Assembly (NCBI GenBank): GCA_963971285.1
Contig: OZ020246.1
Span: 12,817,217-12,881,216, forward strand
Direction: 5' to 3'
DNA length: 64,000 nucleotides
From: Astropecten irregularis
Taxonomy: Eukaryota; Echinodermata; Asteroidea; Paxillosida; Astropectinidae
The notes beneath the pieces were generated by a model, which searched no databases, was not told the DNA's origin, and saw nothing but the letters and a program-made list of their open reading frames with translations. The position numbers and the translations under genes are program-made. Below are positions 1-62,200 of the stretch, piece by piece; position 1 is the stretch's first letter; each line of letters opens with the position of its first letter.

Positions 1-1030
1 CGTGGTAGATGCAAGATTCTTAGCCCAGTGATGAAGAGTTGTTTCTTCCGAGGTCGCATCATTCTTATTTGCTTTCCAAACTCCCAAAAGATCTGCAAGT
101 TCATCATCAACACTGCTGTCTTCTCTCAGCTTTCCGCATCCTTGTTCAGAAAAGGCATTGTCTGGAAGCCTGCATCGGTCTTTTCCCACTGCTACCTCTC
201 TTCTCCTAAGCTGCTTGGTTGAGCTGCATCTTGGTTCTGTTTTGCTGAAACAGGCTTTAGGTGTTGATTTCTTGGAGGCAGTAGAGTTGATACTTGTTTG
301 CTTCATCAACTCAGATAACTCCATACAGACTGTTTTCATATTGGGAGCTTTGTTCTCTTCCACTCTAGGCTGATCCGCATGTTCTACATCTTTGCTTGTG
401 GTTTGCTGTGGAGCAGGAAAGACCATCTGAGATGACGCTTGGCTCGGTTGATTATTCAGGCCATCAAAGTCAATGGGTTGAACAGTTGGTGGTTGCTCAG
501 GCTGGCTGTCTGCAATTGTTTGAGCCTCATGTTTGCCATCAGATGACTGTAGAGCCATGAGTTGATTGGGCTGGCTTTCAGCTGTTCCTTGCATGGTATA
601 TCCAACATTCTTAGCCCAGTGATGAAGAGTTGTTTCTTCCGAGGTCGCATCATTCTTATTTGCTTTCCAAACTCCCAAGAGATCTGCAAGTTCATCATCT
701 ATGCTTGTTTCGTTTCTCAGCTCTCTGCTCCCAGTTACAGAGGAGGTGTTTTCTTGGCATTCCTTGTTTTTGCGTTGACCTCTGCCCACAGTTACCTCTC
801 TGGATTTCCTCCGAACCTGCTTGCTTGAGCTAGACCTTGGTTCTGCTTTGTTCCTACAGACCTTCAGTGCTGATTTCTGGGAGCTAGCGATATGTGTCTG
901 CTTCATCAGTTGAGATAACTCCATGCTGACCTTTTTCATATCAGGTGCTTTGTTCCCTTTCACTTCATCAGGCTGATCCACAGGTTTTGCATCTGTGCTT
1001 GTGCTCTCCTCTGGAAGAGGAAATACTGCC
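1..1030 (-). repeat. ~591-bp (197-residue) diverged coding repeats
   Basis: The segment DELADLLGVWKANKND followed by ATSEETTLHHWAKN is encoded twice, with its Asp codon at 651 and again at 60, a spacing of 591 bp. Flanking matches include EENKAPNMKTVCMELSELMK versus KGNKAPDMKKVSMELSQLMK. A third, more diverged relative (ELRHDIVNEDELANLMS) lies near 1690. The second unit is cut by the window edge, so more may follow. Confidence 0.88.
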
Positions 1031-4000
1031 TGGGATGGTTCTTGAAGTAGTTGAGCTACTAGGCCATCACAGTCACTCAGAGGTTGAGGTGCTGTACCTT
1101 CAGAGGTACCAAGAGGAGCGGCTCTGTGTTGGCATTTTATCCGAAAGGTGCTGGATGAATCTAGAGTCTCCAGATGATTGCAATGCCTTTCAGGTGATTC
1201 TTGCCTGACTGAACCTACATTCCAGTGGGATGGTTCTTGAAGTGGTTGAGCTGCTAGGCCATCACAGTCACTCAGAGGTTGAGGTGCTGTACCTTCAGAG
1301 GTACCAAGAGGAGCGGCTCTGTGTTGGCATTTTATCCGAAAGGTGCTGGATGAATCTAGAGTCTCCAGATGATTGCAATGCCTTTCAGGTGATTCTTGCC
1401 TGACTGAACCTACATTCCAGTGGGATGGTTCTTGAAGTGGTTGAGCTGCTAGGCCATCACAGTCACTCAGAGGTTGAGGTGCTGTACCTTCAGAGGTACC
1501 AAGAGGAGCGGCTCTGTGTTGGCATTTTATCCGAAAGGTGCTGGATGAATCTAGAGTCTCCAGATGATTGCAATGCCTTTCAGGTGATTCTTGCCTGACT
1601 GATCCTACATTCCTCTCCTGAGGAGGAGCTGGTTCTTCCACAGATGCGTCCTGGTCATTTATTGATGAACCGCTCATGAGATTCGCAAGCTCGTCTTCAT
1701 TCACGATGTCATGTCTCAACTCCGTACCCATACACACAGGAATAGCATCCCCTCCTCCGTCAGGATTTCTAGGAGTCTCAGCCTCATCTTCACCATCTGC
1801 TTCGTGGTTGATCAGTTCTCTGACGCTGTCCTGAGGTGCACTTTGTTGGGCCAGGTTTCCTGCAAGCTCACTTTCCAAACCAGCCAGTATGTTGTCACAG
1901 TATGCTGCGCCACCAATGTAAGGTTCAGGTTTCTCCTCACTGAAGGCAGTGTCCTCTTGGTCGGTGGAGCCAGAGCCATCCCGATATGCGACAGCCGATA
2001 CATTGCATCCAGGTAGCACCTCTCCATTTGCATACTGGTTGAAGGTGCTCCATTCTGTTTCCTCTCGAGGTACGCTTCGTTCTCTCTGAGAGATTTCTTC
2101 AAGAATCCGGCTGACATAATCCAAGACAGTGACGTTGTTCTCCCTCACAGGCTCAGCAGAAGCAGTTTGACTGTCGGCTGGATCTTCTGGGTAAGCCGGA
2201 TGTTGTTCTTCCGACAGATCTTGCCTCAGCAGAATCGCCTCATTTGCTTGCTTTGTGTTTCCATGAGTCATGTTTTCCCGTGGCACACATTCAGAGGCTG
2301 TCAATTCACTCGCTGCTGGTCGCAGGTCCACTTTGTCTGATTGACTCACTCTCACCTCTGCAATTTGAGGCTCACTTTGTACCTTCCTGAACATCGTATC
2401 TGTTGCTCCAGACATAATCCTTGCTTCTGTTGAGGATGTCGCTTTTGATCCCAGTACATTGGTCTTGCTGTTCGGTACATGGAATCGTATTTGTATGATA
2501 GGCTGAGAGTCTCTCCTCATTTGTCTCACCCGAGCACGAGTATCCAAGCCGTACCATGAAGCGATGTTCCTTATCAGTGCTCTTCGTCTGTGGCTGTCAT
2601 GACGACAGTGATGACATCGTCCTGCTGCTACTCCACTTGCACCTATCAGTTTCCCTGTTGATGCAGTCTTGGTACGATAACCACATTGGGCATAGGCACA
2701 AATCGTCAGCACCTTCATCCTCATGGAACGAGGTGGGGAGCAATTTGCATCCATTCTTTTGTTCTCCCCGATACTCCAGTCCTCAATCTCCATGTATACG
2801 GTCTCTTCAGCATCAGTCTCCATAGCGATTGCATCTGTCTCCATGGGAACTGTCTCCATACCATCACTATCAGTCTCCATGGTTTCCATGATATCTTGGC
2901 CATACTCTCTGCTGTATCCAATGGCTGGTGCCCAGAGGCGGGATCTCTTTGATTTCTTCCTGTTCTTCTTATTATTGTTGTTGAAGTTGGAATTTGGACA
3001 TTCAAAGTCACCCAGGTCTGTATGCTCGATGCCTGAAAAGAAACAAAGGACATGAAACAAAGTGTTTAAATTGTGGATTGTTAAAGTTATGATGCAGGTC
3101 AGCATTTCAGTCAGTCGCTTCACAAACCAAATTTTAATATGAATGCACCAGAGAATGAGATAATATTGGTGCATGTTTTAATCATCTTTTGGTCGAACAA
3201 AGCATTTTACTCATTGAAAAGTGAAAAATCTGGAAATGCTCAAAACACAATAACATCATACAAAAAGGATATATATTTGTAATACAGATGTCAACAGTTA
3301 TATGCGACTCAAGTACGCAAATTAATCTGGCTATTTTGCCATATTGTGCTGTCTGTTGTTGGGTTTTACTTTCTATCAGCCATGCATTCAACTTTCGGAA
3401 CCTGGTTGGACTACCCTTTCAATTAAAGCATCATAATTTTGCAAGATTAATCAATAAGCAAACGATACAATCATAAATTGACTCAAATTGACTGGAGTTA
3501 AATAATTAACTTGACTCGACTCGACATTCTTGACCTAAATAACTCGACTTGACTCAAGTCACTTTTTTAAAGTGACTCAACTCGACTCAACTTGAGTCAC
3601 ACATAACAGTGACTTGTTACAACTCTACTATGAAGTTTCCCCAGAAAGTTTGACACCCAAGGAGTTGTACAAAAATCACTACACGGAGACTTTCTGAAAT
3701 GGCCAACATTTCTAATTGTTTTGCTACTCACCATTGCAAGAGTTTTGGTCCATGAGTGATCCGTGCTCCTCCCAAGTGCCTTCCTCATTCTCATAGATGG
3801 TGATGTTGACTGATATTATGTATGGACGAACATCTGTAAAAAACAAAATGAGAGAAAACAATTCTTATCTGTGGATTCTGTGCCTCTATGGAGGGACTGA
3901 AGCAAGGGAACTGTTGCCCCCTCCCAAATTACAACAATAACAACAAACAAATGAATGGGAGAGAAGGGAGAGACAATTTTTTGTTAACACAGAATTAGAT

Positions 4001-7000
4001 ACAAAGAGTGTGGTATCCCCTGATGTTTTTTGTTCCCCTCAATTTTTGTGCGTTATTTCATTTTAATTTCTGTATCAATATGATTGAAATTGTTTTTGAT
4101 CTTATTCCCCTAACAGTGCTTTTGAATTGTTTATTATTTCCCCTAGGCTTAAAGACTGGATAGATCGAGCTTCAGGCAGTGATGAACTAGTGATAACAAA
4201 CCATAATTGTGGACCCTTTCGTGGATTGCCCGTACATGTACAGTGTAAGTGTACAGTGAAGGTATATGAGAAATGCATGGTGGAACAGTTTGCGGTAGCA
4301 TTTTGCACATAAAATTCCATAGGCTGTGAAAAGGTCTATGTAAGTGGAAAATGCCTTTCAACTTACCAGTTTCCTTTACATGTCTTGGTGATCTTGTCTT
4401 TCCTCCGAACCCCTTACATTGACAGGTGTAGAAGGCAATGACAAGAAGCCAGGTCGCCACGGTCATGATGGTGGTACCTTGATCATCAGGTGATTCCTCA
4501 GACAGGAACCAGGAGACTGTGAGAGCATGCATGGTGACACTGATGAGATGATGACGCCTTGGTTGTCCGAGTCCTAGCTGGCTGGACCTCAGCAGTATGG
4601 ACGGGTTGAAGCAGCCAAGATGGTTGGTCATGCTGGACTTGATGGCTTGAAGTCGACGGCTGACTGCATCCCAGAGAAGACATGCAATCCAAACCAACAT
4701 GGAGACTCGTACACTGGGCAGGAAGATCACAGAAAGCACCAGGAAGATGGATGCCATTTTGGTCGGCCTCATCAAGCGCCGCAACGCACTCACTAAACGC
4801 CTCAACTGCCAGGACTGATCAACAAGATGAAGCCGATGATCATTAGGATGAAAGCAGTAGCGAGGACGTTTGATCTTCTGGGGTCTCCTGTGGATGTCTC
4901 TGCGAAGAAGCTGAATCAGGAGGATGGCGATCCCCAAGAAGCTGGAGAAGATGGACAACTGACCAATGATGGTGAGGGTCGGTAGTCCTTGCTCTCTGAT
5001 CCAACGTGCGGTAGTGATGAACTCCAGAGCAACCCCAAGGAGTCGGTCATGGAAGAGGCTAGTGATGTATGTCAAATGTGAACCTATCCAGGCTACTCCA
5101 CATAGCTAATGAGAAATTTTCAAGTAAGAAGGAAATTATTATTTTTTTCATATTTATGTCCACTGATTTATTGATTAAATAGATTAATAAATTTGTCTGT
5201 GCAATGCCAAATGTATATCATGCTTGGATATTCAGATGAGATAAGATGAGATGAGATTAGATGAGATGAGAGGAAACTGAATTGAAACAATGAGGTGAGA
5301 CGAGACAAAACGATGAGATGAGATGATACAAGAAGATGAGATAAGACGAGAAGATGAGATCAGATGAGATGAATGTGACAAGAAGATCATATGAAAAGAT
5401 GAGATGAGACAGGAAGATGAAATGAGATAGGATTATTTTGCAGAGCAACTCACCATGGAATTGCCAGACTCCAGTTCTGTCGAAATCACCTCAGGCGGGA
5501 CAGCTGAAGTTATCCCTTTGCTACCGCCAGATGACAGTGCAAATTGCCAAAGAGATGGATGGTATTCGACAGGTACTCCTCCAGAATGAATGGGCTCGTC
5601 AGGAGAAGCGCTGGTCCTCAGGCACAAGGTGCCTGGTGATGGTGTTGTGCCGGTGGTCGGGCAATTGTCACTGGAGCTTGCAAGTTCCATGGGAGTTGGT
5701 GTTTCTTTTGCATGGTCCACATCAGGAGATGGCGGCATTCCCAGGGAAACTTGGCGGTGCTCAACAGGTAGACCATCCGTCTGATCATCAGAAGTGACCG
5801 GGACAGAGGGTGAACTGGCCGCAGATGTCACTAGGTGGTCGGTGAACTGGTCAGCGGTCAGCGATGGTCCAATTGGTGGAACTCCGAAGAGTGCACCATG
5901 GAACCACTTGGAGATGGTAGTCCAAGTTGAACCCATCTGGTCCATTCCACATAGCTAATTGTGGATCAAGCATATACCATTGAACGCTCAGTAATGTCTT
6001 AAAAAGTTGGGATGGGATGGGATGGGATGAGATCAGATCAGATGGGATGGGATGAGACGAGAAGATGAGATGGGACAAGAAGATGAGATGAGACAAGATG
6101 ATGAGATGAGACAAGATGATGAGATGAGACGAGATGAGATGAGAACATGAGACAAGAAGATGAGATGGGAGGATGATATGAGACAAGAATATGCATATGA
6201 GATGGGAGGATGAGACAAGAAGATGAGATGAGACAATTACAAGAAGATGAGGTGATATTAGGTGAGATTATTTTGCAGAAGATTTGATATCCATAACAAT
6301 GTTAAGATGCTACTCACCGTGGAATTGCCTGGTGATGGTGTTGTGCCGGTGGTCGGGCAAGTGTCACTGGAGCTTGCAAGTTCAATGGGAGTTGGTGTTT
6401 CTTTTGCACGGTCCACATCAGGAGATGGCGGCATTCCCAGGGAAACTTGGCGGTGCTCAACAGGTAGACCATCCGTCTGATCAGAGATGACCGGAACGGA
6501 GGCCGAACTGGCCACAGATGTCACTAGGTGGTCGGTGAACTGGTCGGCGGTCAGCGATGGTCCAATTGGTGCAACTCCAAAGAGTGCACCGTGGAACCAC
6601 TTGGAGATGGTAGTCCAAGTGGAACCCATCTGGGCCACTCCACATAGCTAATTTTGAATCAAGCATATACCATTGAACGCTCAGAAATGTCTTAAAAAGT
6701 TATTGAGATGAAATAAGGTGAAATAAGATGAGATAGGATGAGATGGGATGGGATGGGCTGAGATAAGGTGAGATGAGATTAAATAAGATAGGATAAGATG
6801 AGATGAGATAAGATGAGAGGAGAGGAGAAGATGAGATGAGATGAGATGTGATTGGATGGGATGGGAGGAGATGAGATGGGATTAGATAAGATAGGATGAG
6901 ATGAGATGGTGTGAGATGGGATGGGATGGGATGGGATGAGATCAGATCAGATGGGATTGGATGAGACGAAAAGATGAGATGAGACAAGAAGATGAGATGA

Positions 7001-9554
7001 GACAAGAAGATGAGACGAGACGAGATGAGAAGATAAGATGAGACGAGAAGATGAGATGAGATGAGATGAGATGAGATGGGAGGATGATATGAGACAAGAA
7101 GATGCATATGAGATGGGAGGATGATATGAGACAAGAAGATGCATATGAGATGGGAAGGGGAGACAATTACAAGAAGATGAGATGATATGAGGTGAGATTA
7201 TTTTACACTGTTAAGATGCAACTCACCGTGGAATTGCCAGGTGATGGTGTTGTGCCGGTGGTCGGGCAAGTGTCACTGGAGCTTGCTAGTTCCATGGGAG
7301 TTGGTGTTTCTTTAGCTCGGTCCACATCAGGAGATGGCGGCATTCCCAGGGAAACTTGGCGGTGCTCAACAGGTAGACCATCCGTCTGATCATCAGAAGT
7401 GACCGGGACGGAGGGTGAACTGGCCGCAGATGTCACTAGGTGGTCGGTGAACTGGTCAGCGGTCAGCGATGGTCCAATTGGTGGAACTCCAAAGAGTACA
7501 CCATGGAACCACTTGGAGATGGTAGTCCAAGTATAACCCACCTGGGCTACTCCACATAGCTAAGTGTGGATCAAGCATATACCATTGAACCATTATTGAT
7601 GTCTTAATCAGTTTCAATGAGGAAATTTACATTTATTTTACCACACTGCTGGAAGAAATCCGTACGATTACCCAATTCATAAAACACTGCAATGCTTAGG
7701 GTCTCAAAGAGCAAACTTCATTTCCTAGCTATCAGTTTTGGCAATGTCAAGCGTGCAATAAGAAGTAAATTAACTAAGAAAACTAAAATCACATTTAACA
7801 TATTCCCCCCCCCCCATGGTACAAGTGCAAAAACGACAAAGATATAAAAGGAAAAAAAATAACCAAAATCACACGGGCACAGAAATCAAATGACTCAGAA
7901 TAAGTAAGTTATTTTCTTGACTTTTTTTTTTCAATTTATTTATTATTGATGTACTGTATAACTTTTTCTTGGGGGATTATCTTAATTATTTAGTACTGCA
8001 CGATTTTCATATTTTGTTACTTTATGTCCTATGTAGGTATGTAGGTCTAAGTTGGAATATTTATAAACGTTATAAGGTGAATTTATTTTAGATTTGCCTA
8101 GTGCTATTAATCTATCTGTAATAACTACCATTAGCAAAAATTATTATTATGCAAATTAGTATACCGGTACTCTTATTAATCAGAACCTTCACTGTATGAC
8201 TGATGAAAAAAATTGACATTAAGGCTTAATCACGTTTTCTTATTTTTTTTCCTCCATTTTTTGCCGATAACCGTATGTTTTTCGTTGTACATTAGGCAAT
8301 ATTCAATAATGTATTGGGTCGCAAAAATTTTTTTAAAGGTAATATCATACTTTGGTTTTTGTCAAAGAAATGCAGATTCGTGGACAAAAATATGAAGGAA
8401 GATACAGTAACAGTCATTTGTGGAATTACAAGTCCCATACGGTGCCCACTTTTTGAGAAATAAAAAGTGAAAAACGGCCACGGTTTTTCTTAAGTCTTTT
8501 CTCTTTTATTTTTGATCTTTAAATGATCAAAAATAATTTCGGTCACTCTTTTCTTGATAAACACAGCATTTCAGGTAGGAGAATTTTAGCGGTATATTTC
8601 TACCATCACCATCTTTATACCCTGTATTAAAGTTGTAGGTAAATCTGTGAAAATTTCTGTTTGGGTAGGCCTACGTTACCAATCCTGTTCTGTACCTTTA
8701 AGATCTTACTCTTTTTCATTTGTATTATCTCTATTTGTTGTTATCATGTGAGTGGTTTTATGGTTTCATGGCTTCTGACTGGCAAAAGTCAGGTATCCTA
8801 ACAATGCTACCCAAATATGATAGTACCTTTGAAATAGTCTACATAAAAAGATGGTATTTTGGTACAATATCATAGAACTAACAATGAAATGGGAACTCAC
8901 CGTGGAATTGCCAGGTGATGGTGTTGTGCCGGTGGTCGGGCAAGTGTCACTGGAGCTTGCAAGTTCCATGGGAGTTGGTGTTTCTTTTGCACGGTCCACA
9001 TCAGGAGATGGCGGCATTCCCAGGGAAACTTGGCGGTGCTCAACAGGTAGACCATCCGTCTGATCATCAGAAGTGACCTGGACGGAGGGTGAACTGGCCG
9101 CAGATGTCACAAGGTGGTCGGTGAACTGGTCGGCGGTCAGCAGTGGTCCGGTCCGGGGGAAGCATCCCCTCACCGGGATGTCTGTCGGGAGCCTCATCAG
9201 CATCTCAAGCAAGGCGGCGGCGGGTGCTGTTGCATCCCGGGCGTCATCAGTTGACAGCTCTCGCCAGAGGTCTTGAGAAGCGGGGTCGAATCCGACAGAC
9301 AGGCGATCCACTTGGATCGGTGGCCCCCACACAGGGGGCAGGCCAGGAGTGGGCAACAGGTGGCATCCAGGTGACGCCGGCGGAACCGGCATCACATCAG
9401 TCGCAGTCTCCGGCTTAGTACCAACGGCTTGCAGGGTGGGTGTCGACGGTGGAATTGTCGACACCTGGCTTATCATCAGCCCCATCATCCACAAACCGAT
9501 GGTCATCAGGGTCACAACATTCCTGAAGGGAAGTTGCTTCATCAACAATAACAT
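1..9554 (-). CDS. Unrecognised large repetitive multi-pass membrane protein gene (3' end outside window)
   Basis: I do not recognise the family. Exons that join in frame (high to low): 9554-8901, 7559-7227, 6647-6318, 5954-5454, 5105-4367, 3833-3732, 3032 to beyond 1. Phases are 0,0,0,0,1,1, and about 1,900 residues are visible with no stop. The start MLLLMKQL (9554) precedes a hydrophobic signal-like stretch and has A at -3. An in-frame ATG at 9884 would add 110 residues and is less likely. The ectodomain is Pro/Ser/Thr-rich (mucin-like) and built from repeats containing LTADQFTDHLVTS. The 739-bp exon encodes about four hydrophobic segments (exon residues 44-67, 117-145, 187-201 weak, 211-228). 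The tail begins with VRPYIISVNITIYENEEG, then has a basic NNNNKKNRKKSKRS patch, METD repeats, a Cys/His cluster (CAYAQC ... CHHCRHDSH), a triple 65-residue repeat and ~197-residue repeats. Exon joining rests on phase agreement and splice-site consensus only. Confidence 0.72.
1032..1616 (-). repeat. Three 195-bp (65-residue) in-frame tandem repeats in coding exon
   Basis: Units begin at about 1032, 1227 and 1422 with a period of exactly 195 bp, and are nearly identical over their whole length. Each encodes a 65-residue block with VGSVRQESPERHCNHLETL, then TSEGTAPQPLSDCDGL. Because 195 is divisible by three, the frame is kept. The near-identity means the amplification is recent or is being homogenised. 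The block is itself related to part of the larger ~197-residue repeat downstream (compare SDCDGL...PSQAVFPLP with DFDGL...SSQMVFPAP). Confidence 0.92.
5233..5437. repeat. GATGA/GAGAT-type degenerate satellite in intron
   Basis: Short-period purine-rich repeat (variants of GATGAGATGA with AGAAGATGAG) filling the intron between the membrane exon and the third duplicated exon of the unrecognised gene. In the transcript (minus strand) it reads as TCATCTCATCT, a long pyrimidine-rich run. Frequent interruptions mean it is old or composite. Open frames here (Ser/His/Leu/Ile-rich) are by-products of the repeat. Confidence 0.9.
6002..6270. repeat. GATGA-type satellite in intron between duplicated exons
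   Basis: Same repeat type as at 5.2-5.4 kb, with GGGATG variants at its left side and AAGATGAGATG variants to the right. It fills the intron between duplicated exons 5454-5954 and 6318-6647. The repeat was probably part of the duplicated unit and may have promoted unequal crossing-over. Confidence 0.9.
6702..7201. repeat. Longest GATGA-type satellite, between duplicated exons
   Basis: About 500 bp of GATGA, GATGG and AGATGAGAC variants between exons 6318-6647 and 7227-7559. It includes a local duplication of a ~45-bp block (GAGGATGATATGAGACAAG) near 7080-7150. Copy number here is likely to vary between individuals. Confidence 0.9.
8333..8701. mobile_element. Chimeric TTAA-ended short inverted-repeat element
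   Basis: The left end (TTAAAGGTAATATCATACTT) belongs to the commonest small element of the window. The right end (CCAATCCTGTTCTGTACC then TTTAA) belongs to a second, related family seen at 33551 and 61719. The element therefore joins two subfamilies. It lies in the first intron of the unrecognised gene. It is non-coding and of MITE size (369 bp). Confidence 0.7.
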
Positions 9555-44730: not shown

Positions 44731-47700
44731 ATGTTTAAAAACACATTTCAGAGCGGATTTTTATCGATATTGTACAGCATAGGAAGCAAACCCTTACAAT
44801 TATGGGCGAGGACGGTAAGAAATGGTTATGTTTATTATTTTTTGTCGAATTGTATGAGGAAAAGATGGAACCAAAATAGGCCTACGTGGTTGCTGCACGT
44901 TGACGTATTGGGTGGCCATTTTGTGTGTTGTTTCAATGCTGGATGTGTACGATTGGCTGGGCACACGGAGTGCAACGGGAGGTTCGCGCATAGCAACGAG
45001 ATGTCTACCGTTTCATATTGAACATTTCTAAGGATTTTACTACAGTACGAAGTGGTATTAGATTAGAATTTTGAAACTTTGTGACAATATTTGTGGTGTT
45101 ATTGTTGTTAAGTCCATCATGCTTTTTCTGAATTCTGGACTTGTAAATTACTGAACCCAGTCCGGCCTGGCCCTGGGCTGGCCCCAAACTTGGCTAGTCA
45201 CTAGAGTGTGGTCATAATGATGTGGAATATTGTGTCACATGGAATTACGCCTGCTCAGGTTTTCGGTCTGTCCTTCAATCAAATTGTTGAATCCACGGTT
45301 GTCATGGTAAATCATTCCACTGAACAGCCCTTTGTTGAAGTGTTCTGCTTAGGCCTATGTTAATATGGCAACTGCCCAAAATAATTCTTAGCAAGACTTG
45401 GCCAGTCTTGGGCAGGGAACTTGAGGTAGACAACTCTTAAATCTGATCCCATCAAAGCAGGTCAATTCCTACGCCGATCAACTCGTACAGTGTTTGGTCA
45501 ACTTGTACACAGCGAAAAATCCCTTACACAAATTGGTACGAAACGGCTGCAAGAGGGCGTCACAATCATCTCATTACATGTAGGCCTATGTGACGTCATT
45601 GCACTGACCAGAAATGGAATTTTTCATGAATGAAACTGACGCGCATTGGCAAATACTCAGCAACGCCCACTTGAATCATTGACACTTCCACAGGCCTCGC
45701 CACAATCTTTCGAATGGTACCAAAAACGTACAAATTTGTACATTTCTTTGACCTTTTGACGATTTTTTGTGGTGTCACCCAACGTTCGAGAACTCATTGA
45801 CTCCGCGGTCATATTTGAACTTTGGTCAACTCAGCTGTATTTTTGTTGCCTTTTTACGGCGAAACTGCGGCACCTTCCAAGTGTGATTGTTAGGTCGTTG
45901 AATATTCATAGCAACATTTGTTGGGTCTGTTGGTTGTGCATGGTGAGAGCGCCACATGAATATGCATAGAATTGCATGGTCGCCGGAGTTGACGTACGGC
46001 CGACCATTGGTCGTTTCGTAGTCGTACACCGTGTGTGTTTGCATAGGCACATCGCGTGATGCGTGCTCTGTACATTCCTACAACGGCCGTGAGTACATAA
46101 CATGTTGAGCCAGCACATGGTTTCTTTGACATCACGAGCACTGCCTTGCGTGTTGACCAATCAGCGCGGCGCTTGTCACTCACGGCACTGTTTTCATCCG
46201 TGTTACAGTACATATGGGGAATTTTTCGCTGTGTTGTTCGCTGTGTTGTACTCCAGCCAACTTGATGGATTGGCAGTTTTTTATCAGGTTTTTTTTTCGC
46301 GAGATTTCATTTGAGGGATGGGTATTTTTCAGGATTGTAAAATAAAACTGTATTTTGGGATCATGGTTTCTTTTTGTAGGGGTTTAATTTTTAAGGTGTG
46401 GAAAAAACTTGAAAAAAAACCCCAACACTGACATTCCTGTTTATCCTTAAAAAAATTCATTTCATTGGAAGTGGTTAACGAGTTAATCGCCATTGTACGA
46501 GTAAGTCATGGTGTACAAGTTAGTCGGCGTACGCGTTGACCAGCAATGATCTAATGGTTAAATGTTCCTGTAGTTATAGTATTAACCAGAATTACACTTA
46601 AACAGTGTCTATCCCAGGGTCAATTGACATCACACATTTATAAATGTATGTGAGAAACAATGCAAAACACAAAAGAGCGGGGGTACTTTAATAGGTAGTT
46701 TATTTTGACCTGGAGCTGAGGGTATACTTGACCAATTTTATCTTTGTTATTTTTTGCCATACTTAAGTTTGTGTTGGACTTTTTTGTTTCTCTTGATCTT
46801 GTAGGTCCGGAATGGGCATATCAAACGCATCACAGACAACGACATCCAGTCTCTAGTTATCGAAATTGAGGGAACAAATGTCAGCACAACGTTCATCACG
46901 AGTCCAGAAGATCCCAAAAAGGACCTGGGGATCAAGCTGCCTTTCCTAGTCATGATCATCAAGAACCTTAAGAAATACTTCACATTCGAGGTCCAGGTTG
47001 TGGACGACAAGAACGTGAGGCGGCGGTTCCGGGCCAGCAACTACCAGAGCACGACGAGGGTAAAGCCCTTCATCTGCACGATGCCAATGAGATTGGACGA
47101 TGGATGGAATCAGATTCAGGTGGGTGTTCTCATGGAATGCTGGTCCATCTTGTATGTGGATTGGTGTGCGGAGACACCATGTAATAATTGTTTGTACTTT
47201 CGCACTTCTATATCGTTCGCACTTCTCGCAATTAGGTCTCAACGTTTCGACTAGTCTGCTGTAGTCCTCATCAGGAGACCTCATCTCTGCGAACGATATA
47301 GAAGTGCAAAAGTACGAATGATTATTACATGGTGTTCCCGCAAGCCGATCCACATACCAATTGTCACCATGCAAAGCCTAAAATCTTTCTTACCATCTTG
47401 TACTATGTCCAACATGTACGCCGACCAACTCGTACATTGTACAACTCGTACGAGTTGACTAAACTGCGTACGAGTTCATTCTCATGTTGGACATCAGGAG
47501 TCGATTTAAGAAGGCACTCAGACTAATTTTAAATTTGCAAATCAATCTTATCTGCGTAGCAAGTTGAGATGTGACAACGTCACAAAACAAATCACTATGG
47601 TGATACTGACTGGCCAAGATTGGTCTTTTGTGAAATCCATCCCAGACAAATATTGTACATTTTTGGGGCAATTGTAAACTCTTACCTTTTGGGTCCCTTT

Positions 47701-56240: not shown

Positions 56241-59200
56241 TTATTGTTGCACGAAGGTTCTGCATGTGTTGTTCGCCTCCTGTTTAATATCCTTGGAGAT
56301 GGTTTCGTCGAAGGGCAGCACACTCTTCCTCTTCTCATCTCGCACCTGCAGTTCAAAGAAAGATATTTCAAAAAATTGGAAAGATGATTTGAGGAGGACA
56401 CGAAATAAATGCAAATGACTGATGCGTTTGACGGCACGATAAACTGTCCGTCGTTACTGGTGTGTCCCCGTCTGCTCTTTGTCCGGCAACAAAATAATTT
56501 ACACTCCTCCGCACTCTATAATTGTAGCGTGTATACGTCCCATGATTAGGGGACATACACCCTGCAGTAGATAGAGTGCGACGGCCGTTTTTAATTCTTT
56601 TGTTGCCGGACAAAATATGGTCGGGGACACTGCAGTAATGGCGGGTGTTTTCTACCTCCATGGCCGCGCCGTCGGATCGGTGTATACACTTTGCCCAAAT
56701 AAAATATTGTCCATGTCCATCAATTGCCATTTTATAACATTACTCTACATACCTTCTCGACAGCTCTAAACACTCGCAGGAGATTCTCGCCCAGGAGTTT
56801 CTTGATGTCCTCCTCTGACCAGTCTCTGTCGATGAGGGCAGCAATCAGGTCAGGATACTTGGAAACATCCTCCAGGCCGGTGGGTAACCTGGTAAGTCCA
56901 ACCAGTTTGTCAAATTCACAATCAGTAAATTGTAACAATCTAAGAGTCATGCATTTTGTAGGATAGTTTTATTAATGGTTCGATCAATATGGACTACTGA
57001 AACATTTATCTGTTGGAAATAGCTTGAGTGCATAGGGTCGACGTATCGATCTTGTCTTGTACGTGGTGCCTGCATGGGACTATAAACAAAAGGCGCGACA
57101 TTTTTACTATTGCCTGCCGCGCACGTGAGCAACATAATTATGTATTTGCCAAGCTAAACTTTAATATCTTTGGCTTGATTCCGTTTGCTTGACATGCCTG
57201 TAACTTGTAGTTTGTGATGAGTTTGGAGATGGATGAGTTTGACTTTGAAGCCGTGAAAAAATGTCAGACTTTTTTAATAGAAGCATAGGGAACATTTTGT
57301 CTACCACCCTGGTTTCTTTTCGATAAATGCACATGAATGGTTATCAGCAACCATGATACTCTCATTCATGATATTGGCGACGGTCCGTGGATGTTTCTGA
57401 TGGAACATCATAGCACTGACAGTAGAGCCTTGTGTTTTGATATCAGAATGCAGTGACGCAACTTTTACATACTGGGAAGATAGTCTGCCTGGATTTGATG
57501 ATGAAGTGTTATAATAGCAAATGACATACATGGGGTCGATTTCACGAAGCCCTACGATTGATCGTATCTCTAGTTACGAACGATAACCCATCGTATCCTG
57601 CATTTGCCTGCAATGCATCATAAGTCTTACGACTTGATAGTACGTTGCGATGAGTTTCAATGGTGATATCGACCCCTACAGCGGATTTCACGAAACTCAT
57701 GTTGCGTATTTTTACGCAACATTGTCTTGCGTAACTTACGCAACATTTTCCTGCCTTTGGTTGCAAACTTGTAAGTTACGCAACATTTCGTGAAATCGAC
57801 CACTGGACTTCAAATCGTTGAACAACCTGATATCTGTATGAATTGTACGGTTATTCTTAGTTGCTTACGTTCCAACGCCATCGTAATCACCCCCAATGCC
57901 AACGATGTCAATACCAGCTCCGCCATCGATGTCCCTAATATGCTCGATATGTTCTGCAGTCAATTTAGAGAAGAATGTTCAACAAAATGATTATGATCAT
58001 GAATGACTATTGACTCAATCTGAACTATCTGTATCAAAAAGTGCCTGGTTGTTTGGTAAAAACAAAATGAGTCCATAATACCCATGTTTAGGATAAGGAG
58101 ATGTTCTTAAAATGTCGCCTCGTTCACTATAGACATTTCTTTTGCAACGTTACAGCCAGAATTTTTGGTTTGCCAACCAAGATGGCAGAGCCTATGGCGA
58201 GCCATGCATCAAGCTGGCCGGGCATAAAAAATAACCACAATTGGAAAACAATTTGTACACAACGATTCATACACATTGAAAGATATTGCTGAATGTACAG
58301 AAAACAACACAAGCAATGATTGTATGTATTTTGTACAGCTATGGAAAGTTTGTAAAAAAAATGTTGACTTTGGTCACGCCGTCTTTCGAGAAGACAGAAT
58401 GATTTGCAACATTTGGCCGCCCATGCCAACTTCACCCAAGGTTTATGAGACAGCAGGCGTGGTTCTAGGGCCAATGTTTTGAGGGGCTAGAAGAGCCATT
58501 ATTTTTTGGGGGGCTAGAAGACGCAATAGTTTGGGTTCTCTAACACTCGCTTCTGCTATGGGGTCGAAAAACATGCACCTGTATACACTACGCGTTTTTT
58601 TTTTATGTAATTGGCGCCTAATAACGGAAAAGATCCAGTATTTTCAAGAATTTTATTTTTCAATTGCATTTGTTTGGGGGGCTAGACAAAACAGTTTTTT
58701 CGGGGGGGGGGGGGGGGGGGCTACAGCCCCCTAGCCCCCCGTAGAACCGCGCCTGTGAGACAGTACGTTGTGCCAATTGTGTGCTCTGTAATAACACTAA
58801 CAGTACATGTAGTTATATACAATGGTATTCATCAGGAAACATTTATAATCATCTTACGTATAACTTGCATCATGGTAGCTTCCCCGAGGTTATCGCTGAT
58901 GTTCATGGGAGGACAGTTGATGTAAGTCGTGTAGAAATTCACCATGACCACGCCCTTATTTTCCACCTGGGATAAGAGATATACGAGAAATACTAATAAT
59001 TGTCAAATCGGGGAATCCCAAATTAGAAAATCCTTTTGCCAGTCGAGTCCGCATCAAACCAGACATTGCTGGTCAGTTTTGTCGTAGGGACGGTCAGGTT
59101 GTTTGGTTGATATTGGAAGAGTAAGATCTCGTACTTGTCATATTTTCTACGGTGGGGAGTCCCCGATGCACCGAGTCCTTATCGATGGTGTGGTCCGGGA

Positions 59201-62200
59201 TAACGATGGGGCCTCGCCGGCCTTAAGTCATAATCTTCCCCCTCTCACCCTCCTTGTAATACTCACCACTCGCCGGAGAACCTCATCGGGCACGTTACGG
59301 TAGGACCCACACACGGAGAAGGCAGACGAGTGACTGTATATGACGGGGGCATCGGTCAGGTCCAGTACGTCATTCATGGTTGCCACAGAGACATGAGACA
59401 AATCAATCAGCATCCCCAGGCGGTTCATCTCCTTAATGACTGTCTGTGGGTCAAAGTTCAAAGGTTATAACTGCCTGCGTGGATTTGACACGGTCAAATG
59501 TCAATTGAAGTGGTGGACCGGTTGACGTCTTTTCTTTTTTTGTCTTTCTCACTTTTGTGATTTGAAATGTTGATATTTTGAAGTATGTTACTTTGTTTGA
59601 TAAATATCAGCTTTAACATGCTTGTAGAGAGTGTGGTCCGTTGACTTAACGTGTGGTGGAAGGGGCGTGGCTATTAGTTCAATAGCTCCATGTGTTCCAG
59701 CTAGATTTACTTCCTTTAAACGTTTCTATAGAAAACTGCCCGAGTGGTGATCAGTGCCCAATTCAGAATACGTTGCATGTGCAAGTTGTTAAGACGACTA
59801 TATGGGATTCAAATCAGATTATTATTTGGGTCCTACCTTTCCGAACTCAGACAGACCGTCTAGCTGATCGGGCGAGGGATCGGCATCTTCCAGCCAGTTA
59901 TCGGCCCTAGAAACGTAATGCACATGACAAGATTATATGTCATTTGAATGAAGTCTGTATACATTTTAAGTTCCGTATCATATGTTGTAACTTAAGAGCC
60001 ATGCAACAATACACTCATGTAGAAATAATTATGAGACCAAAAATTAATAGTCGGTGATCATGTTAGGGCTGCTATACGATATACAGGCGGTAACCTTATA
60101 CAGTATAGTTTGTAGTATGTAAGCAAACATACAGCTTTGCCAGGTCTGTTTTTTCCATATTGGTCGCGGCGTATATAAGCACGCTCTATAGCGTTTGCTA
60201 CTTGCTAGTATGAGTTCAAGTTTCTTAAACTTTCCTGCTGGATGAATAGGAAGTTGTATAACATTATTGAAAAGTGAACAAAGAAAAATTGACTGGATCG
60301 GGATTCGAACCGGCGACCTCCTGAATACCGTACAGGCGCTCTACCAACTGAGCTATACGGTCACATCCAGGAGGTCGCCGGCTCGAATCCCGCTCCAGTC
60401 AAATTTTCTTTGTTCACTTTTATTTCAGTCAGTTTCCCTTGTGGTTTTTTGATGATTGTATTATATTAATATTATGAGACTTCATTACCAGGGTGTGTTA
60501 CAGCTGTGTGTGACAGTCATGTAACGCACGCCGAGCTCATAGAGCATGCGCAGTACGCCAAGATGGCTGTCCATGTTGTGTCCTCCCTCTACACCAATCA
60601 GAGATGCAATCTTGCCGTTGCCATGGGCCTCAACAATGCCTGAAAATAGACAACCGTTTCAAAACTATTCAAATGAAATTTAAAACGGTTAGAACATTTT
60701 GCATGGATTATAAACTCATTGTTAGGCTTTACCGTCTTATTCCAAACTTACGAATTGAAACTTCTAAGTTCTCTTTGAATCCTTCACGGTTACACCACGC
60801 TTTCGAAATGCTACTAAATCGTTCGGACAAACGATCTTTTGAATGACACTAAATCTTGATTTCCTTGGAAAAACCCAGCATCTGATGAACCAAGATTTCC
60901 CATGGTGACTATTTTGCAAACTCAATAATGTTTTTTGTAGGCCTTGCAAATCCCGTACGCTGCCTTTAAAAGAAACGTAAGAGAAGGATTACATTGTTCA
61001 AACATTGTATCGTTCTTAACTTCTGATGAGTTTGAACACCCATCACAATTGTATCTATATTTAAATTAAGTGAGTAGTATTTCGAAAGTATTTTGTGTGA
61101 TAAATCATCATTACCGTCGGCTGTAGTGACGAACTGGAAGTATTCTGGATACATATCGCACATACGCTTGATGACGTCAATTTGATCCAATATGTGATTA
61201 ATGGCGTCCTTGTACTGCGATCCACATGATGTGTATGCCGCCCAAAACTGAACAAAAAAACAGAGGACAAAATATTGAAAATCTATCAAGACGCCTTCGA
61301 TGAAATCTGTAAAGAAGATCCCTCTAAGGAGATCAAATGAGGTTTCATTCCTATCTCCCTCTGTCAGTGGATTATGTTGGCTTTGTTAAATTAACCCTAA
61401 CCCCCTAGACATTTGTACTCGATACCTTTCTCAGCCTAACACAATCCAACAGCCTGGAGTGTCAGATAATGTCCACTGTACTCAACCTGTTATACTCCAA
61501 CAGATTACTCTATAACAACGGTACACAGCTCATCAAGTTCCAACAGTTGCTTACTGTTGGAATTTGGCAGACTGTGTACATAAGGCCCTATGCAAAAATA
61601 AACATCATTTTCACATGGTATCAATCTTAGCAAATTCCAACAACTGTACCCTCCTCAGCCTAACAGATCCCAACAAAACATAATGTTGGAGTTTAAAGGG
61701 CCTGGGGGCGTTAGGGAAGGTACAGTACAGGATTGGTAACATACCCAAACAGAAATGTTCACAGATTTACATATAACTTTCAGGATATGAAGATAGTGCT
61801 GGTAGAAACATATACCTTTAAAATATTTCCTCCTAAAATGGTGTATTTATCCAGAAATAAAAAACAAAGACCGAAAACAGTTTTGATCTCGGGTTAAGAT
61901 CAAAACCATTCTTTATGTTTTATATTAAGAAAAATTGAGTCGGGTTTTTGCTATTTTCTCGTGACTCAGATGTCCGATTGAGCTCACATTTTCACAGGTT
62001 TATCATTCCACATGCTGGATCAAACAAAGTTTGAGTGCTGCTCTGTGACCTCGACCAATCATGTATTATACATGTACCTTTAAGATAGATATTGTAAAAC
62101 GGCCCGTTGTTTGGAAGGGACGATAAATGTTACTATGTTTTCACAGCATTCACACCTTAGCCCGTTCATAAATCAACTTGAATTCAAGGCGATGGCAAAA

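Follow-up and report, generated by a model that had tools for sequence, protein, structure and literature searches.

Three neighbouring exons of one gene in Astropecten irregularis raise the question whether an exon can be assembled from the start of one exon and the end of another in the same gene and, if so, how it was assembled and multiplied. A preliminary description of the window, by which we mean the whole 64,000-nucleotide stretch of DNA analysed, bases 12817217-12881216 of contig C9, had each of these exons (R1, R2 and R3) begin like the membrane exon of the gene (TM) and continue like the end of its exon 1 (E1), and had proposed one fusion followed by multiplication to three copies together with a satellite-bearing intron.

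The gene lies on the minus strand, and its seven exons join to 1897 codons without a stop before it leaves the window at base 1 (Table 1). The internal exon borders carry AG and GT, and with the open joined frame the exon positions and anatomy proposed at first inspection proved correct. E1 is composed of a hydrophobic N-terminal segment (signal-peptide-like, by hydropathy only), a Pro-rich part and a "stalk" tail that it has in common with the R exons and whose edges are a GGACCA on the left and the donor on the right. Hydropathy marks four hydrophobic stretches in the product, residues 13-31 in E1 and residues 652-670, 726-744 and 818-836 in TM, and the 80 residues of the R1 stalk consist of 15% Ser, 16% Thr and 14% Pro. 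Going by its sequence, we interpret the predicted product as a membrane protein that has a long tail and a repeated stalk, the stalk probably lying outside the cell. Pfam gave no family above its cut-off for E1, R3, TM or the exon 7 frame, and two weak matches below it (E 0.033 and 0.014); the structure predicted for TM from its single sequence (mean pLDDT 51.7) was too poor for a fold search.

Table 1. Exons, introns and repeated parts of the gene, in order of transcription
Feature	Position	Strand	Description
Exon 1 (E1)	8901..9554	-	Open frame from ATG 9554; donor GTGAGT from 8900
E1 stalk tail in common with R exons	8901..9149	-	94-97% identity to R1-R3
Intron 1	7560..8900	-	No satellite row (Tandem Repeats Finder); repeat element that recurs in the window (blastn self-comparison)
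Chimeric exon R1	7227..7559	-	333 nt, phase 0-0
Intron 2, satellite-bearing	6648..7226	-	Tandem Repeats Finder rows within 6704-7185
Chimeric exon R2	6318..6647	-	330 nt, phase 0-0, one codon short
Intron 3, satellite-bearing	5955..6317	-	Tandem Repeats Finder rows within 6011-6236
Chimeric exon R3, long form	5454..5954	-	501 nt, phase 0-0
In-frame stretch only in R3	5466..5629	-	164 nt before donor end; flanked by GGCA direct repeats
Intron 4	5106..5453	-	Satellite on 5' side; 3' end not recognisably like R acceptor flanks
Membrane exon (TM)	4367..5105	-	Bases 1 to about 75 (5105-5031) like the R 5' part, then three hydrophobic segments
Exon 6	3732..3833	-	Frame and splice sites
Exon 7, long tail	1..3032	-	Continues past window end

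Exon 7 holds repeats of its own. A 195-bp unit stands there three times in frame at 1031-1613 with about 99% identity, and this triplet is a recent internal expansion in the tail of the gene that carries the R exons. An internal duplication of about 480 nt in the same exon (3-472 versus 594-1075, 74.5% identity) is older than the triplet.

We searched the species' own genome (475.7 Mb in 168 contigs), scoring the best candidates and omitting very common words from the DNA search. The R protein was found at four places, namely R1-R3 and the tail of E1, and E1 as a query recovered the same four exons, while TM and a 469-residue part of exon 7 each gave a single place. A second copy of the gene, as an alternative donor or internal outgroup, was not found among the best candidates in this genome, which is not proof of absence. 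One scan of a viral collection with R2 and one scan of prokaryote genomes with TM yielded no relative.

Two partner exons and one switch

Each R exon combines the acceptor side of TM with the donor side of E1, and the borders involved in E1, R and TM all have phase 0. In R1, bases 1-84 (7559-7476) are TM-like and bases 85-333 E1-like. Over the first 84 bases, in the same register, R1, R2 and R3 share 52, 53 and 51 bases with TM, while dinucleotide shuffles of this part averaged 22 and never rose above 39, 38 and 37, respectively, in 5000 shuffles each; the gapped score was reached by none of 2000 shuffles. With 51-53 identical bases against a shuffle maximum of 39, the proposed likeness to the start of the membrane exon stands clear of chance level. 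Outside the gene's own exons, the best window sites for the R1, R2 and R3 5' parts reached 39, 42 and 40 of 84 bases. The site with 42 matches to R2, at 57091 on the minus strand, contains an in-frame stop and was taken as chance.

From base 85 onward the R exons follow the last 249 nt of E1, with 241 of 249 bases identical in R1, 234 of 246 plus a 3-nt gap in R2, and 96.3% identity over the 241 nt that precede the extra stretch of R3. The preliminary description had them continue "exactly like" the end of E1; the match to the E1 tail holds, at 94-97% identity rather than exactly. The 84 bases of E1 ahead of the switch do not detectably resemble the R 5' part (p 0.90, 1.0 and 1.0), and homology between stalk and TM was not supported past the switch (p 0.08-0.13) or at the junction (p 0.13-0.17).

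The breakpoint test suggested for these exons gave a sharp switch between two partners. In a three-sequence scan with each R exon as child and TM and E1 as parents, the observed descent was reached in 0 of 20000 permutations for every R exon, and the switch was located at approximately R bases 75-85, apart from a few stray sites to either side; the scan of R2 was ungapped and runs out of register past its 3-nt deletion. Bases 77-84 match either parent poorly. Over their common length R1-R3 are 93.4-95.4% alike, and each forms a phase-symmetric unit with the frame open across its joins.

Divergence, intron flanks and satellite

The two halves of the R exons differ in apparent age. Over 75 columns of the 5' part, mean differences amount to 8.4% among R exons and 33.8% between TM and R; over 240 columns of the stalk they amount to 4.2% (4.21%) among R exons and 4.05% between E1 and R. 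After scaling to the divergence among R exons, the membrane half exceeds the stalk half 4.2-fold (bootstrap 95% 1.7-14.2, with 4 of 2000 replicates no higher than 1). TM and R are separated by silent distances of 0.44-0.60, E1 and R by 0.074-0.093, and Fisher tests on hand-rounded synonymous counts separate the halves (p 0.014, 0.001 and 0.012). A rate-scaled simulation of one joint event leads to about 6.5 TM differences in 75 nt (97.5% bound 17), whereas about 25 are seen (P = 0.0029). Four-fold sites are few, with differences at 2/9, 4/10 and 2/8 sites for TM-R versus 5/54, 4/50 and 4/52 for E1-R. The TM-R differences mostly change the amino acid (dN 0.40-0.46, dN/dS about 0.7-1.0), and rapid protein evolution at the membrane exon could make this half seem older than it is, although the synonymous counts by themselves still differ.

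Constraint acts on the stalk (dN/dS about 0.2-0.4) and may be part of the cause of its likeness among copies. In 80 aligned codons E1 differs from R1, R2 and R3 at 8, 12 and 9, respectively. Since the E1 tail is as near to the R exons as these are to each other, its distances are not those of a donor outgroup. Four stalk sites are private to E1. Two-against-two splits of the four copies occur at just two columns, which conflict, so that the stalk copies yield no usable tree. Variability among R exons is lower in the stalk (15/237) than in the upstream intron flank (11/54, p = 0.003); the difference from the R 5' part (10/84) falls short of significance (p = 0.15), and constraint may contribute.

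The intron sequences beside R1-R3 are alike as well, as in tandem exon duplication. About 54 nt before the exon are common to the R copies (43/56, 46/56 and 51/56 identical), while TM against R gives 26/56, 22/56 and 22/56. The starts of introns 2-4 resemble each other, with indels, in local alignments reached by 0-2 of 1000 shuffles; global alignment hardly separates the downstream flanks among R exons (31/60, 36/52 and 23/52) from those between E1 and R (29/60, 21/60 and 20/52). Introns 2-4 run into an AGATG-type satellite, of which Tandem Repeats Finder returned no row in intron 1. The satellite meets the upstream flank at a similar point in R2 and R3, as would be expected from one tandem duplication followed by exchange within the satellite. 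With arrays in introns 2-4 and R flanks in common, multiplication together with a satellite-bearing intron is supported.

Neither the downstream flank of E1 (p 0.29-0.89) nor the upstream flank of TM (p 0.29-1.0) shows detectable likeness to the R flanks, and thus the recognisable duplicated flanks of an intron-spanning duplication were not found. Masking of the E1 flank by a many-copy mobile element is unlikely, because the segment beside the E1 donor, 8780-8900, was found once in the DNA search of the own genome. Further into intron 1, at 8329-8666, lies a repeat element that recurs in the window, complete or in part, among other places near 21.0, 25.6, 31.9, 39.7, 48.6, 53.1 and 55.2 kb; the longer matches have 76-86% identity.

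The 164-nt stretch of R3 has one place in the own genome, and its reading as an old stalk copy was not supported at the DNA (p 0.26) or protein level (p 0.09). It is possible that the long form of R3 is ancestral and that the others were shortened by deletion between the GGCA repeats. A single insertion of the stretch would require fewer events should R2 and R3 be sister copies, which their flanks suggest.

Candidate origins of the chimeric exon

An origin has to be fitted to two partners, one switch, the phases, the common R flanks and the unequal apparent ages. With a little less than even confidence, we favour an old tandem duplication from inside E1 to inside the membrane exon, multiplication with the satellite intron and later homogenisation of E1. 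Starting from the order E1, intron, membrane exon, the duplication would have one breakpoint in E1, close to GGACCA, and a second some 75-84 nt from the beginning of the membrane exon, and it would have copied the tail of E1, the intron and the first part of the membrane exon. At the junction a new exon would form, taking its acceptor from the membrane exon and its donor from E1. Phase symmetry is inherent in such an exon, whose ends derive from the two sides of a single intron; all it needs is an in-frame junction. Satellite would subsequently have arisen in the intron downstream of the chimeric exon, and unequal exchange within it would have multiplied exon and satellite together, giving R1-R3. 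Exchange (concerted evolution) would have held the stalk alike in its four copies, E1 among them, and the R 5' part, which is absent from E1, would have drifted away from the membrane exon.

We prefer this duplication because one structural event would cover both halves and the symmetry. It predicts copies of the intron, and as these are undetectable the event must be old. It would also leave both halves equally diverged from their sources, which they are not; the unequal halves fit it only if E1 was homogenised later, so that it is a fitting origin rather than a proven case. Homogenisation of E1 is plausible, being what the low stalk variability and the equality of E1-R and R-R distances would predict. 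That a single duplication gave a symmetric, multipliable exon, with the satellite driving both its multiplication and the exchange that drew the end of E1 into the homogenised family, is in its entirety rather unlikely. If true, the first exon and internal exons of one gene would evolve in concert along part of their length only.

The opposite direction fits the same distances and stands nearly as well as the duplication, and we regard it as possible, if on the unlikely side. Here E1 would be the young chimera: an R exon with its own stalk, and with a start copied long ago from that of the membrane exon, would have preceded it, and the 3' end of E1 would later have been replaced by the R stalk through template switch or conversion. 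The E1 tail is indeed as close to each R exon as the R copies are mutually, the common tract ends at the donor, the start of intron 1 is unlike those of introns 2-4, and its segment 8780-8900 has a single place in the genome. The origins of the R stalk and of the start common to R and TM would, however, need a separate event, and the four private E1 sites are equally compatible with E1 as an outgroup. Had E1 been fused to an R exon by deletion, a satellite intron would follow E1, which is not seen. GC3 is 0.51 in the E1 stalk and 0.67 in the upstream part of E1, but this argument from composition is weak because the two parts hardly differ in overall GC (0.60 versus 0.57) and CpG ratio (0.69 versus 0.62).

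Taken literally, the preliminary description implies one recent recombination between the start of TM and the end of E1, then multiplication to three copies without later exchange. The two partners, the sharp switch between them, the symmetric phase and the multiplication all stand. A single recent fusion does not sit with the 4.2-fold gap in scaled divergence (4 of 2000 bootstraps at or below 1), the simulation (P = 0.003) or the synonymous counts (p 0.001-0.014), nor with E1 and TM intron flanks that have no detectable likeness to those of the R exons, and we consider it improbable.

Likeness of R and TM without common descent, by a constrained membrane-near motif and chance at the splice border, might be read from the mere 75 nt or so and 12-14 of 25 residues in common (hand count) and from the preponderance of amino-acid-changing differences (dN 0.40-0.46), but it is very improbable given base identity well above shuffles, in register from exon base 1, and first 15 bases that agree at 15/15, 14/15 and 12/15.

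Harmless exon duplication needs equal phase at both exon ends, and an exon from two sources, with ends that are one intron's two sides, offers a route to a symmetric exon from exons that are not necessarily symmetric. The locus is also a reminder that near-identity of exon ends can mean later exchange and not the date of a fusion.

Known parallels and further observations

Parts of the report on Senegalese sole dmrt1 describe an intragenic tandem duplication with a breakpoint within an exon, which left a partial exon copy mid-gene (PMC7605655). The duplication inside one gene and the position of the breakpoint resemble our favoured reading. In those parts the partial exon is said to lack the correct reading frame and is called non-functional (PMC7605655), whereas here the partial copies are joined to the start of another exon, in frame, and multiplied. 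A chimeric FGFR2 IIIb/IIIc exon in one patient with Apert syndrome is reported to have arisen from a 1372-bp deletion via 13 bp identical in both exons (PMC3192734). Like the R exons, it joins the start of one exon to the end of another in the same gene; unlike there, E1 and TM have no detectable likeness at the switch, and both partner exons survive. For the major ampullate silk genes of Argiope, passages of the report describe near-identical alternating introns, and its authors propose that these aid homogenisation by unequal crossing over (PMC9779670). Common to both cases are repeated coding units, repetitive introns between them and coding repeats kept alike, but the Argiope introns are near-identical, those here carry a short-unit satellite, and those passages contain no two-partner chimeric exon. 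A multiplied exon from two unrelated exons of one gene was not found described among the titles and abstract openings examined, which took in part of the two longest result lists; most subscription journals lay outside the search. The negative result supports novelty only weakly; the individual parts are already known, and what appears new is the combination.

Ten other open frames of the window were scanned. A CFA20-domain (CFAP20) frame lies at 46805-47251 on the plus strand (E 5.6e-49) and matches solved CFAP20 chains, best 11yj; a Peptidase_M19 frame lies at 60969-61385 on the minus strand (E 2e-6).

On contig C168 of the genome, COX1 requires TGA to be read as Trp and is therefore mitochondrial. 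In this gene AAA occupies a site that is presumably Asn in animals, and AGA occurs; both fit the echinoderm code. AGG is unused in it, a disuse known from lancelets too. Before COX1, ARAGORN placed Leu(taa), Tyr, Ala, Leu(tag), Asn and Gln in this order, in agreement with the order known from starfish. The introns of the R-exon gene mark the host as an animal, and on these mitochondrial features a starfish is probable. COX1 on contig C131 (L013) is open over 552 codons without TGA and looks bacterial in our judgement; this is perhaps a symbiont or contaminant contig. A partial COX1 match at C25:9951047-9952018 contains seven TGA codons and is perhaps a mitochondrial piece in the nuclear genome.
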